Of a stretch of 55,232 bases of DNA, positions 24,046-40,917 are shown one piece after another. Position 1 is the first letter of the stretch, and each line of letters opens with the position of its first letter. A model generated the notes under the pieces. It saw nothing but the letters and a program-made list of their open reading frames with translations. It did no database searches and was not told the origin of the DNA. The position numbers and the translations under genes are program-made. The DNA comes from a virus, in the IMG/VR virus record IMGVR_UViG_3300011440_000024, positions 1-55,232 of that record; one strand, given 5' to 3'.

Positions 24046-26481
24046 CTATATTGCTTCTCCCCATGATGGGCCGATTTGCATATCAGCTTTGAATGGTAGT
24101 TCCCAACCCAATGCATCTTTAGCTCTTGATTCCATAACCTGTTTACAGATCACTCCGTACTCATCGACGTAGTTATCTTCCACATCACCCAAGATGGAAT
24201 CGTGGACTGTGAGGACGATAACCGCCCTAGCTGAATCAATGTTATCTGCGATGATAATGGCAGATGTGAGTGTGAGGTCGTTAGCAGTTGTTTGAGGATA
24301 GAAGTTAATTCCCTCTCTATAGACCGCTGACTTATTGTAGTCCGTGAGAAGATGGAAACGTCGCTTCCGTCCAAATGGAGAAGTAAGTGTTCCCTTAGTG
24401 TGAATCTCTGTTTCGACAGCTTTTTCCCAGGTGCCAACACCAGTAAATGTTTTCCATACCCAGTCAATATACAGTTGTGCCTCCGACTCGGGGATATCAT
24501 GTTTCTCCTGGAATGTTGCTGCTGTCTGTCTAAAGAATACACCGAAGTTTACGTTCTTAGCAACGTCTCTATTATGCTTCGTGAAATCGGCACCATAAAA
24601 TCGTTCGGCACACTCGGAATGCAGGTCGCGTCCTTCTTGATAGATTGCCCATAGAAGAGGGTCGTGAGAAAATTCAGCAATGCAGCGAAGCTCTGCTTGC
24701 GAAAAGTCTGCATTGACAATACTTCTTCCGGGGCTAGCACGAAACAGAGTTCGGATATTAGGGATGCCCTCTTTTGGTCTTGTGATATTCTGAAGATTTG
24801 GCCTACGGCTTGATAGCCTCCCTGAGTTAGTTCCGAACAAGAGAAGGTCAGTATAAATTCTCCGTTCTTCGTCTGCTTCGGCATTGGCAATTAATCCAAT
24901 CAGATAGGTCGAAGCCTGTTTAGCGAGTTGCTGTGAACGATCATACAGTTCAACAAAACCTTTATAGTGTGCTTTTCTTTCTGCTAGATCAGGAGCTTCT
25001 TTAGCAGTAACCACATTACCCACACGCTCAGTAACAGTAGAACGTCTAACACTAAAACGATCAGCAAGAATTTCTTTTCTTGCCGAGTCATCGACACTGT
25101 TGTCTTTGTCGGGACGCTTTCGCATTTCATGGGTAATGCCCCAATCATCATAAAGGATAGCTGACATTTGTTTCGGAGAGTTAGGATTGAGTTCAGGCTT
25201 GTCAACCCATGTTCTCATCTTATCGGTTAGATCAACAAGTTCCGGCTTTACCTGAAATTCGTATAGATCAGCAGCACGATCCACGTCATAAGTGATACCG
25301 TGCAACTCAGCAGGAATAAGTAGATTATTAGTAGCTGGTATGAGAATCTCGTTGTAGAATCCCAGGACTCCATCAGCAGCGGCCATAGGATAATACAAGT
25401 CAAACAAAGACTTAGTGCCACCCACATCATTACCAGCATAAGTATAAAATTCATCATAATCTTCTACTACCCCTGTTTTCTTTGCTCTAGTAACAGCGGG
25501 AGGCGTGTAGTTGGGCCAACCGAATTCCTCCATGAGTAGATATTCAAGACCGTGAATTCCTATCGCGTCATCCCCACCCGATCTTTCATCCAACGCATAA
25601 GATAGGAGAATCGTGTCGTGATCGACTCTTGCTTTGATTCCATAGGTATGACGGAGGATTTTAGTATCGAACTTTCCATTGTGCCAGATAAAGCTATGAT
25701 GTTCTGATTCAAGTAAGGATCGTAAATGATCTCTAATGAAATTTTCGTCCTCAAACAATCCTTCACGCTCTCCGAGAACATAGGCGTGAGTTCCATCATA
25801 ACTGAATTGAATCGAAATAAGAGTCGCTCGGTGGGTGAGTCCTCCCCGAGATTCAATATCTGCCGCAATCTCTCCTGTCTTATTACTTCGTAGTTCGGCA
25901 ATGAGTTCGATTGCATCCTTCCTACTTTCGACAACTTCAATAGAAGGAAACGGAGCAGGTGGATTAGGATTAAACGCTCTCTTAAAGTCTTTCTTTAAGT
26001 TGGGGAAAACACTATCATCCCTGACGGCGAGTGCAGGATTATTGGTAGCAACAACTGTTCTGCCGTTTTGTTCGATACGATAACCTCGGTAACGATCAAT
26101 TGATCCTCGTCCACATATGAGATTAACTGCTTCCGATCCGGCGGCGATGACAAGACTAATACCGGATAGCTCTTTATGTAACCTTGGAGCGCACGCTTTA
26201 ATCGCAGCCGGCGGTACTTTGTTACCATCAGGTTCACATAGGACAACATTGGTAAGCATCACATCCTTACGAGTCAATCCATTACTCTTTAGAAGACTGT
26301 CGATAATGGCACGACTACCTTTAGGATTGGCAAATGGCTGCTTCGCCATAACATCATAACGTGCAGGTGATCGTGAAACTATGGCGGCTGTAGCCTGTGG
26401 CGGTTTTAGCGTGGGCGCATGCTTCTTCCGTTGAAGAGGACACTTCTCACATTCCGCTAATGGGTGCTTTCGCAAGGGCAT
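24046..26481 (-). CDS. DNA polymerase I (family A) with N-terminal family-4 UDG-like domain
   Basis: 811 residues. Residues 1-170 resemble family-4 uracil-DNA glycosylase: four cysteines C11, C14, C82, C97 (CX2C, CX14C) as for a 4Fe-4S cluster, plus RKDVMLTNVVLCEPDGNKVPP and VIAAGSEAV. The glycosylase motifs are altered (SRSPARYD in place of GEAPG-type, NNPAL in place of HP). Residues ~200-400 carry a 3'-5' exonuclease (D208-I-E210; WHNGKFDTK; YAGND). The polymerase domain has motif A with D592, O-helix R638/K642/F646 and motif C HDS 760-762. It replicates the phage genome; the UDG part may read or tether uracil-containing DNA. No 5' nuclease domain. Confidence 0.92.
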   Translation of the reverse strand: MPLRKHPLAECEKCPLQRKKHAPTLKPPQATAAIVSRSPARYDVMAKQPFANPKGSRAIIDSLLKSNGLTRKDVMLTNVVLCEPDGNKVPPAAIKACAPRLHKELSGISLVIAAGSEAVNLICGRGSIDRYRGYRIEQNGRTVVATNNPALAVRDDSVFPNLKKDFKRAFNPNPPAPFPSIEVVESRKDAIELIAELRSNKTGEIAADIESRGGLTHRATLISIQFSYDGTHAYVLGEREGLFEDENFIRDHLRSLLESEHHSFIWHNGKFDTKILRHTYGIKARVDHDTILLSYALDERSGGDDAIGIHGLEYLLMEEFGWPNYTPPAVTRAKKTGVVEDYDEFYTYAGNDVGGTKSLFDLYYPMAAADGVLGFYNEILIPATNNLLIPAELHGITYDVDRAADLYEFQVKPELVDLTDKMRTWVDKPELNPNSPKQMSAILYDDWGITHEMRKRPDKDNSVDDSARKEILADRFSVRRSTVTERVGNVVTAKEAPDLAERKAHYKGFVELYDRSQQLAKQASTYLIGLIANAEADEERRIYTDLLLFGTNSGRLSSRRPNLQNITRPKEGIPNIRTLFRASPGRSIVNADFSQAELRCIAEFSHDPLLWAIYQEGRDLHSECAERFYGADFTKHNRDVAKNVNFGVFFRQTAATFQEKHDIPESEAQLYIDWVWKTFTGVGTWEKAVETEIHTKGTLTSPFGRKRRFHLLTDYNKSAVYREGINFYPQTTANDLTLTSAIIIADNIDSARAVIVLTVHDSILGDVEDNYVDEYGVICKQVMESRAKDALGWELPFKADMQIGPSWGEAI

Positions 26482-38402: not shown

Positions 38403-38477
38403 TTACGCACCATCTTCTCCATCACCACTACCACCATCATCGGGTGCTGGCTCAGTAGGCTCATCTTCCCAACGCAT
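38403..38477 (-). CDS. Tiny acidic protein, 24 aa
   Basis: ATG 38477 shares a base with the upstream TAA, and GGAGGGGAGG lies six bases before it, a very strong SD for so small an ORF. The product MRWEDEPTEPAPDDGG... is acidic, Gly/Asp-rich and surely unstructured. May be a genuine micro-protein or a leader peptide controlling the structured RNA that follows. Confidence 0.5.
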   Translation of the reverse strand: MRWEDEPTEPAPDDGGSGDGEDGA

Positions 38478-38719
38478 TATAACCTCCCCTCCAATGCATA
38501 GTAGAGTCTTGATTTAGCAACTACATCTAATGCATCTGAGATATCTACTGTGCGCGGTAAGTTGTTCTGCCTACTTTGTATTCCCGAATCGGATTCATTT
38601 TCTTGCCATATTCTGTGATCGGATTCGGCTTTACCCACTGAGCTTGTGCTGTCGATGCTGTCATCAACACTACTAGTACGATCATCGCTAGAACGATCGT
38701 TGTAATTCTCATTGCTCAC
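38477..38719 (-). CDS. Hypothetical Ser/Asp-rich protein, 80 aa
   Basis: Low-complexity N-terminal half (DRSSDDRTSSVDDSIDSTSSV) and a short helical end (ISDALDVVAKSRLYYALEGRL). Not recognised. It follows the secreted muralytic protein gene by 12 bases in the same operon. Confidence 0.58.
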   Translation of the reverse strand: MSNENYNDRSSDDRTSSVDDSIDSTSSVGKAESDHRIWQENESDSGIQSRQNNLPRTVDISDALDVVAKSRLYYALEGRL

Positions 38720-38731
38720 TTCATCCCCTTA

Positions 38732-39361
38732 TTAATATGGTTTGCAAGACCAGGGCGACCAATCTTTCCCTGATGCTACAAAGTATTCATACGCTGCTAC
38801 TGCTTGTTCGAGCGGCGTGTTACCATGTCCATATGTTGAACGTGCGAAGTTGCCCATCTGGAACATACCTAGATACTGTCCATTGTGTGCCCGGACACTA
38901 TAACTTGACCCTGATTCACAACGAGATACAGCAAGTGCCTGATCGCAGTAAGCTCCAAAGACGTGACAAATTGCCTCTCGTGGGTCTTGTAACTCAACGT
39001 ATGTTCTGAACGTATCATCTGCACGACCTGCCCACTTCTTTCCATTGAACTTAAGATAATGGCAACCGTGTGTTCTACGTTCTGCGTAACTTGTTCGTGT
39101 GCGGGGAACTAAAATCTTTTCTTGCCAACTCCATGTAGCAGTTCTTTTGGTACTAATATACTTCCTAGCACGATTGAGATTGCAAGTCTGCTTGTGACTA
39201 GACTTACTAAGCACTCTTGCATTTCTCTCTACAGCATTATCGTACTTACTTATGAGTACCGACTTGCTCTCCTGCGGTACTTGCTGTTGGCTAGTTGCCA
39301 CTGTTGCACCAACTAATACAAACGCAACAGTTATGGCTAGTATGGCAGCAACTCCCTTCAG
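38732..39361 (-). CDS. Secreted transglycosylase/Rpf-like muralytic protein, 209 aa (CTG start)
   Basis: The C-terminal ~90 residues (EAICHVFGAYCDQALAVSRC then ESGSSYSVRAHNGQYLGMF and QMGNFARSTYGHG) follow the lysozyme-like/resuscitation-factor fold, with the catalytic Glu in RCESG. The annotatable GTG at 39301 lacks an SD. In-frame upstream codons encode MKGVAAILAITVAFVLVGAT, a clear signal peptide, starting from CTG 39361, eight bases after a perfect AGGAGG; an in-frame TAG just upstream excludes any longer start. The protein would be exported and cut cell-wall glycan, perhaps for superinfection control or release. It lies apart from the late lysis genes. Confidence 0.75.
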   Translation of the reverse strand: MKGVAAILAITVAFVLVGATVATSQQQVPQESKSVLISKYDNAVERNARVLSKSSHKQTCNLNRARKYISTKRTATWSWQEKILVPRTRTSYAERRTHGCHYLKFNGKKWAGRADDTFRTYVELQDPREAICHVFGAYCDQALAVSRCESGSSYSVRAHNGQYLGMFQMGNFARSTYGHGNTPLEQAVAAYEYFVASGKDWSPWSCKPY

Positions 39362-39545
39362 GACTTGTACCTCCTAGTAGATTACAGAATTGTGCCTCCT
39401 AATCCCCTTCGGTTGTAACTCGGCACCCAAGCCTTACCAACGCTAGTGTGATTTGCAACCATCACTAGTGGACTAGGTAATACGATGACCTCTGCAAAAG
39501 TCTCGTACCCTCTGGGGTCATTACGTTGCAGCGCACCCCATATAT

Positions 39546-39632
39546 TGTGGAGTTAACGGAGGGGGGTCATATTGTGGTTATTAACCTATGCGTTGGGAAG
39601 CGCAACAATATGAACGGGGCGTTAACTCCACA
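39546..39632. repeat. Composite inverted repeat (13 bp + 9 bp)
   Basis: TGTGGAGTTAACG (39546-39558) pairs perfectly with CGTTAACTCCACA (39620-39632), and inside it TCATATTGT (39567-39575) with ACAATATGA (39605-39613). The unpaired stretches between the two helices are G-rich (GAGGGGGG and ACGGGG). The innermost part can form GGTTA/TTAACC or TGCG/CGCA hairpins. Confidence 0.8.
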
Positions 39633-39703
39633 CTTAAGCTACTACGAATAGTAGCAATCTTTATACCTGCTTAGATTATCAAAGTACGGAAGTGCAGAAT
39701 AAT

Positions 39704-39761
39704 GAGAATGGAGAAGCTACTAAGTTACGGCTTGTGCGGTAACTGTTCACTTCTCCATCTC
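39704..39761. repeat. Composite inverted repeat (12 bp + 6 bp)
   Basis: GAGAATGGAGAAG (39704-39716) pairs with CTTCTCCATCTC (39750-39761) with one bulged A, and AGTTAC (39723-39728) with GTAACT (39739-39744) inside. Lies about 35 bases downstream of the predicted leftward transcript start. Confidence 0.78.
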
Positions 39762-39796
39762 AGAGTAACTACGTGGGGGTAGCAACTCATTGCTGG

Positions 39797-39825
39797 ACAC
39801 TAGCAGAAAACTACTGTTGTGTCAA
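39797..39825 (-). promoter_or_regulatory. Leftward promoter in front of the structured RNA
   Basis: TTGACA (39825-39820), 17-base spacer, TAGTGT (39802-39797), with TGC before the -10 (extended -10). It overlaps the 3' end of a doubtful small ORF. Same layout as the promoters at 34.7 and 43.4 kb. Confidence 0.7.
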
Positions 39826-40002
39826 GCCCCCAACTGCACTATCTGATAGTTCTTCCATACTTAGGAGAATCCCGAAGTTGGCATAAATTAGCCAGATAAA
39901 CATATGGTCAACGAAGTCCTGCTCACTTAGGAAGTAAGCAGTAAATTCAATTGGCATATGATACTTGACATTCCAACTGTTGTATGTATGGAAGTTCTCC
40001 AT
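39811..40002 (-). CDS. Doubtful small protein, ~63 aa
   Basis: Open frame that can start at ATG 40002 (MENFHTYNSWNVKYH...) or at ATG 40014 or 40038; none has a Shine-Dalgarno. The amino-acid content (TAYFLSEQDFVDHMFIWLIYANFG) looks protein-like. All three starts lie in the arms or loop of the 14-bp inverted repeat, so if real, translation is controlled by that structure. Confidence 0.38.
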   Translation of the reverse strand: MENFHTYNSWNVKYHMPIEFTAYFLSEQDFVDHMFIWLIYANFGILLSMEELSDSAVGGLTQQ

Positions 40003-40052
40003 ACTAAACGTCATCATATTGAAGGGTGTACTTCTCATATGACGTTTAGTAT
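40001..40052. repeat. 14-bp perfect inverted repeat
   Basis: ATACTAAACGTCAT (40001-40014) and ATGACGTTTAGTAT (40039-40052), with an inner GAAG/CTTC helix and a GGTGTA loop. A second small hairpin (GTTAC/GTAAC inside GGGG/CCCC) follows at about 40057-40085. Lies between a tag-motif gene at 40105 and the doubtful small ORF. Confidence 0.8.
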
Positions 40053-40104
40053 AGAGGGGGCAGCTACGTTACTGGTAACTACCCCACTCCATACAGTTAC
40101 TTAC

Positions 40105-40398
40105 TTAACCTGTAACCGCCTGATTGACGATATACACGTTACCCTTCTTGCTGGACACCTTAAGCTGCTTGAACTCTTCAGGCGCATCGTCAGCCTTACG
40201 AGCATTCTCAAATCCCGTCTTGACTGTAGATGCCTTACGTCCCTCAAAGTGTCCCTTATCCGTAGGAATCCTAGCTGCACGAACTCCGTTATCAACGATC
40301 TGCTGAAGGATAGACTTATACTCACCCTTCGACCTAACGGAACTAAGTGCCTCACCAATCTCTTCATCACTAAGCGGCTCGAACATTAGATCAGTCAT
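40105..40398 (-). CDS. Early protein with FEPLSDEE N-terminus (RSKGEY family), 97 aa
   Basis: ATG 40398 has AGGAGAG at the right distance and is preferred over an earlier in-frame ATG. MTDLMFEPLSDEEI is followed by SSVRSKGEYKSILQQIVDNG, IPTDKGHFEGRKASTVKTGF and a C-terminal LKVSSKKGNVYIVNQ. The protein at 47777-48100 has the same order (FEPITDEQEI, SGRSAKGETALFL, GKSTDSLYATLHG, RVKKDDDTFLRIV), so they are distant paralogs, probably small alpha/beta DNA-binding proteins. Function unknown. Confidence 0.75.
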   Translation of the reverse strand: MTDLMFEPLSDEEIGEALSSVRSKGEYKSILQQIVDNGVRAARIPTDKGHFEGRKASTVKTGFENARKADDAPEEFKQLKVSSKKGNVYIVNQAVTG

Positions 40399-40449
40399 AT
40401 TCTCTCCTGTGGTTTGTGTGTTTTGTGTATTACGTGGTCTTGCCATAAT

Positions 40450-40917
40450 TTATGTGCTACCCCCTTTCTCCTTCTCTAGTCTTACTAGACGTTCTTCGTG
40501 ATTTACTACAACTGCTTTGATATCTAATCCCTTTAACCTCCCTTCTAGATTAGTAATCCTTTGCTCTAACTCATCGAGAGGAATCGTAGCAGGTTTCGCA
40601 CCACCTGTCAAGGTCTTATCACCTTTGACATAGCGTGCGTCGTATGCGTCCTCAGTGGGAGCACCATGCAGGCGATACCGTGTAGGTCTGCCGCGTGCCC
40701 CTCTGTCGATGAGTTCTATGCAACCAAGTTCCTTAAGAGCATTGAATAATACAGTATAGTGAGCCATAGATATACCAAGTGAATGGAATGTAGTAACTAC
40801 CTTACCTTCGTATGTCGTGGTACTCTTGGCACCTTTCTTCTTGATGACAGTAGACTCTTTCTCCATAGCTTCGTATAGCTGGAGGAGATAGCTAAACTTT
40901 CTAGCTTCAGGTGGCAT
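40450..40917 (-). CDS. Winged-helix regulator with C-terminal coiled coil, 155 aa
   Basis: Residues ~45-85, ISMAHYTVLFNALKELGCIE then LIDRGARGRPTRYRL, read as a winged helix (recognition helix, then the R-G-R-P-T wing). The last 45 residues form a coiled coil (LDELEQRITNLEGRLKGLDI), likely for dimerisation. Probable phage transcription regulator of the early arm. Overlaps the preceding gene by 11 bases. Confidence 0.72.
   Translation of the reverse strand: MPPEARKFSYLLQLYEAMEKESTVIKKKGAKSTTTYEGKVVTTFHSLGISMAHYTVLFNALKELGCIELIDRGARGRPTRYRLHGAPTEDAYDARYVKGDKTLTGGAKPATIPLDELEQRITNLEGRLKGLDIKAVVVNHEERLVRLEKEKGGST

Follow-up and report, generated by a model that had tools for sequence, protein, structure and literature searches.

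The window analysed here, the whole 55,232-nt stretch of IMG/VR virus record IMGVR_UViG_3300011440_000024, carries on its minus strand a small conserved open reading frame (ORF), a promoter, a structured non-coding tract and the gene of a secreted, lysozyme-like protein, referred to as the wall gene. The tract runs into AGGAGG and then into this gene. The coordinates of all features are outlined in Table 1. The Pfam SLT_3 match of the wall protein is weak and lies below the cutoff. CTG at 39361 is the probable start codon, since the signal peptide is whole only from that codon. In many relatives AUU, AUC, AUA or CUG is likewise found at Shine-Dalgarno spacing of the wall gene, an observation for which the control was too noisy to yield a number. 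ORF callers limited to ATG, GTG and TTG would mis-start such genes.

The surroundings show further features. An 18-bp inverted repeat (39997-40056) surrounds the start of the small ORF and is largely retained in the relatives L004 and L006. Two overlapping ORFs in different frames, 38477-38719 and 38545-38712, both have counterparts in L004; these lie upstream of the muralytic gene there, whereas they lie downstream of it in the window. At 24049-26481 the window encodes a DNA polymerase A with an N-terminal uracil-DNA-glycosylase superfamily domain (Pfam UDG, DNA_pol_A).

Table 1. Features of the leader locus in the window.
Feature	Position	Strand	Basis
Small conserved ORF directly upstream, its end overlapping the -35 box	39811..40038	minus	
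Promoter TTGACA-N17-TAGTGT with TG extended -10, TTGACACAACAGTAGTTTTCTGCTAGTGT	39825-39797	minus	Sequence; counterpart at the same place in relatives
Structured non-coding RNA, leader of the secreted muralytic gene	39362..39791	minus	No coding frame; z -5.3; arrangement common to relatives
5' hairpin GAGUUGCUAC-CCCCAC-GUAGUUACUC, C-rich loop 39773-39778	39763..39788	minus	Stem covaries across the family
Hairpin 2, 14 bp, GAGAUGGAGAAG with CUUCUCCAUUCUC	39704..39761	minus	Fold; alignment shows compensatory changes relative to L006 and L004
Conserved segment UUUGAUAAUCUAAGCAGGU	39665..39683	minus	Near-invariant among window, L006 and L004; mostly unpaired in the centroid model
Hairpin 3, GCUACUAUUCGUAGUAGC	39638..39655	minus	Fold and sequence
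13-bp helix UGUGGAGUUAACG/CGUUAACUCCACA around a further helix and an unpaired ACCCCCCU stretch	39546..39632	minus	Fold
Conserved 3' motif UGUAAUCUA-CU-AGGAGG, the Shine-Dalgarno region of the wall gene	39370..39386	minus	Relatives show a similar sequence ahead of the gene
Secreted lysozyme-like (SLT-type) protein, probable CUG start 39361-39359	38732..39361	minus	Signal peptide in frame; weak Pfam SLT_3 match

A structured tract without coding sequence

A sequence-only reading of the window had claimed a strong promoter with an extended -10 element, followed by some 430 nt that lack coding signal and form several long helices. The minus strand does carry this promoter, and one of the same kind stands at the equivalent place in L056, L035, L059, L062, L063, L054 and other relatives. 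The minus strand of the window has six promoters of the type TTGA[CA]-TGNTANNNT, the plus strand none. The 5' end of the RNA is predicted at about 39790. All six frames are interrupted by 7-11 stops each across 39362-39795, which bears out the absence of a coding signal. The tract is also, as had been proposed, the largest gap between likely genes in the window, measuring 510 bp up to the nearest GTG and about 450 bp once the signal peptide of the wall gene is allowed for.

The folding energy of the 434-nt tract corresponds to z-scores of -5.3 (minus strand) and -5.9 (plus strand), and no shuffled sequence reached so low a value. Thirty-five other minus-strand segments of 434 nt from the same genome gave a mean z of -0.44 (sd 1.4); the sole sampled segment with a lower z than the tract was one overlapping it. 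The long helices could be located as the 13-bp helix and the 14-bp hairpin 2. In the 13-bp helix, 39546-39558 pairs with 39620-39632, and its counterparts are GUGGAGUUAAUG/CAUUAACUCCAC in L006 and GUGGGGUUAG/CUAACCCCAC in L004. The outer pair of the 5' hairpin is G-C in the window and C-G in L004. The folded model of the window contains one C-rich hairpin loop, that of the 5' hairpin, in addition to the unpaired ACCCCCCU stretch. The pattern TGTAA[AT]C[TG]A, which describes the conserved 3' motif, has its only copy in the window there.

A leader family in uncultured phages

Relatives were collected with three queries: the protein encoded at 40105-40446 yielded three viral contigs, the wall gene twenty loci and an alignment of the neighbouring helicase 66 loci. 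Gene limits in these relatives derive from ORF tiling, not from curated annotation, and several leader ends were placed by hand. Among cultured phages, the nearest helicases share about 25% identity and come mostly from Gordonia, Rhodococcus and related phages. No relative was found among the genome contigs searched with the helicase profile, and blastn against phages and plasmids gave no match. Judging by the kind of phage, the source samples are presumably mostly soil. Exact-pattern searches with conserved pieces of the tract matched only in the three close phages, and a pattern combining the promoter with CCTCCCTTGG gave real matches only in this phage family; the matches in L120, L122 and L123 were judged to be due to chance because the promoter lies within coding sequence.

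Three close records were available, of which L002/L005 is nearly identical to the window while L003/L006 and L004 are diverged. Both diverged records retain the promoter, the 5' hairpin, hairpin 2, the segment UUUGAUAAUCUAAGCAGG and the long helix, the latter with paired changes. Coding sequence at this place in related phages would have spoken against an RNA, and none was found over the first ~280-430 nt; L004 has two small ORFs within a longer gap at the place of the tract. L006 and L004 carry a second, highly conserved structured domain of 150 nt (element B) directly before the muralytic gene (L006:4826-4976, L004:2275-2424). The two copies are 84% identical (blastn) and differ mostly by compensatory changes, including four compensatory pairs. 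Neither the window nor Rfam contains element B, and a covariance model built on it found no member beyond L006 and L004.

Via the helicase, 30 further IMG/VR phages were found in which a promoter of this type, at the equivalent place, is followed by a structured leader and a gene for a secreted wall-acting protein, which makes 31 with the window. The downstream proteins are of several kinds, lysozyme-like or other; that of L113 is RlpA-like as read by eye. Leader lengths range from about 80 to 690 nt in the 30 further phages, and the sequences are very different. Apart from the 81-nt leader of L071 (z -1.6), all leaders of the 31 phages have z-scores from -2.7 to -13 (the value for L113 was computed over a 600-nt stretch that includes the wall gene).

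Most leaders open with a hairpin a few bases from the predicted start. Across the family its stem bases covary, while the C-rich loop stays UCCCUU or similar (CCCCAC in the window). A covariation score of 0.947 was obtained, compared to 0.28 for shuffled hairpins (0/500); this count covers 10 of 14 hairpins because the MAFFT alignment of all 14 was shifted by one column. A scripted, gap-free whole-arm permutation on 14 hairpins found 98 of 112 pairs formed against 53.9 expected (0/5000). The stem changes seen across relatives maintain pairing. No 5' hairpin of this kind follows the remaining copies of the promoter, mostly intragenic, in the window and its relatives. In 20 of 37 phages the motif CUCCC lies no more than 45 nt from the predicted start; it was seen in 1.6% of background windows and at 3 of 88 other promoter copies. 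A binomial p-value serves only as a guide for this count, since the phages are related.

The tract is non-coding and structured, has a conserved, covarying hairpin and occupies a fixed place, and the leaders make up an element that is conserved in this uncultured phage family yet changes fast. The earlier proposal of a so far undescribed phage RNA or a long leader of the muralytic gene is supported by what the homologues share, namely the promoter, the covarying 5' hairpin, the structured leader and the same kind of gene.

Possible roles of the leader RNA

The leader family is new to Rfam: at gathering and at relaxed thresholds nothing credible was found for the tract, and no known riboswitch matched in the window. 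The sequence-only reading had mentioned GOLLD and ROOL as precedents, seeing no proof of identity, and rightly so. Their Rfam models gave no gathering-threshold match in the window or in 17 relatives and none in the window region at E-values up to 10, so that identity with either was rejected. Like the leader, GOLLD and ROOL are large, structured RNAs of phages with no known function; however, the leader is shorter and less conserved, and GOLLD and ROOL often lie near tRNA islands, whereas the window has neither tRNA nor tmRNA genes (ARAGORN). Some relatives carry tRNAs elsewhere in their loci, and Rfam identifies phage tmRNA genes near the same locus at L068:7582-7917 and L115:8753-9049.

In its predicted behaviour, the leader would come closest to a transcript of mycobacteriophages L5 and D29, the Pleft RNA. 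Pleft is a strong early promoter giving an abundant RNA of ~500 nt with no conserved reading frame; most transcripts are processed and stop short of the next gene, and their function is unknown (PMC5712189). Pleft is located at the right genome end, in contrast to the leader before the wall-enzyme gene, and a blastn search of 38700-40450 against the phage collection revealed no match.

Long helices and the C-rich 5' part do not behave alike. One clade of seven phages lacks both the wall gene and the long structured leader; six of the seven keep CUCCC after the promoter (L076 was omitted from the CUCCC count, as its promoter match is a different copy). Because this clade lost the helices and kept CUCCC, the long helices appear to accompany the wall gene, whereas the C-rich 5' part appears independent of it. 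On the helicase tree, one event accounts for the joint loss of wall gene and long leader, and hence the association is suggestive only. The CUCCC-bearing 5' part, as judged by its retention, very probably has a role that is not tied to the wall gene. U-rich tails after long helices were found in 18 of the 31 leaders compared to 5.8 expected by position, i.e. three times more commonly, which suggests that they are terminators. L078, L082 and L065 have clear terminator-like ends before the wall gene. This enrichment and these three ends favour a partly terminating leader.

We consider it about an even chance that the tract gives an early leader RNA, stable and in part terminating, which keeps a weakly started secreted enzyme in check. 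A strong early-type promoter would make the structured RNA, the stable 5' hairpin with its C-rich loop would shield the 5' end, and the long helices would halt much of the transcription ahead of the wall gene. Scant read-through and a weak start codon, CUG here, would then hold the enzyme low or late. We infer transcription, termination, low enzyme yield and the purpose of the RNA. This reading is favoured by the low z-scores of nearly all leaders, the covarying hairpin and its absence after other promoter copies, the U-rich tails, the secreted wall-acting products encoded downstream, the lack of long structured leaders in the clade devoid of the wall gene, and a somewhat lower accessibility of the wall-gene Shine-Dalgarno sequence. 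Several observations argue against this reading: a convincing U-tract terminator is missing from the leader of the window itself, leader length and fold differ widely among phages, the association of wall gene and long leader rests on one change in the tree, and CUCCC persists in the clade that lacks the wall gene.

The last point and others would also fit a mainly separate, stable small RNA acting in trans, whose C-rich loop would bind ribosome-binding sites rich in G on messages of the host or the phage, in the manner of the actinobacterial 6C/B11 RNA, with the wall gene as a low-level passenger. The loop is retained while the stem covaries, CUCCC is far more frequent near the start than in the background or at other promoter copies, and several leaders, such as those of L078, L082 and L065, have terminator-like ends. 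The loops of B11, a hairpin with C-rich loops as in the leader, were shown to bind ribosome-binding sites (PMC10470900). B11 has two C-rich loops; the leaders usually have one clear 5' C-rich hairpin and much longer extra helices, and the folded model of the window has the unpaired ACCCCCCU stretch besides its C-rich loop. Against a trans-acting RNA, the window loop is CCCCAC and not CUCCC, the RNA always stands before the same operon, and no 6C/B11 match was obtained with the Rfam covariance models, all families having been searched. We regard a trans-acting RNA, the main rival of the leader reading, as possible, though doubtful. Somewhat more speculative is its fuller form, in which an early small RNA of the phage family would use the C-rich 5' loop on ribosome-binding sites to redirect translation during infection, the wall enzyme riding on read-through.

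Alternatively, the leader may be an element for processing, stability or protein binding of the operon messenger, without any regulatory switch. A 5' hairpin is a known stabilizer of bacterial messengers (PMC3997798), and structured 5' leaders and stabilizers likewise carry their hairpin where the transcript ends, ahead of a single gene; the hairpin is also present where the wall gene is absent. Yet the leader differs from these in its much greater length, its fixed place in a whole phage family and its conserved loop sequence, and neither this loop nor the restriction of long helices to wall-gene phages would be explained, which makes this reading unlikely. A translational lock, in which the C-rich loop would pair over a long range with the wall-gene Shine-Dalgarno sequence, is very improbable: the two are complementary by sequence and the Shine-Dalgarno of wall genes is slightly less accessible than that of other genes (0.31 vs 0.43, p 0.012), but ensemble folds of 19 leaders do not support the pairing, the 5' hairpin pairing substantially with the Shine-Dalgarno in one only, L095.

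Regarding the favoured partly terminating leader and its rivals alike, abundant non-coding early phage RNAs were already known from L5 and D29, but their function was not. With more than 30 related leaders, a conserved loop and an attached enzyme gene, the question of function becomes testable by reporter and loop-mutant work. Further long intergenic hairpins were seen in two relatives (L101:2500-3240, L115:8300-9320), where they share the flanks GTAGTTGAAT ... ATTGAACTACG or a close variant.
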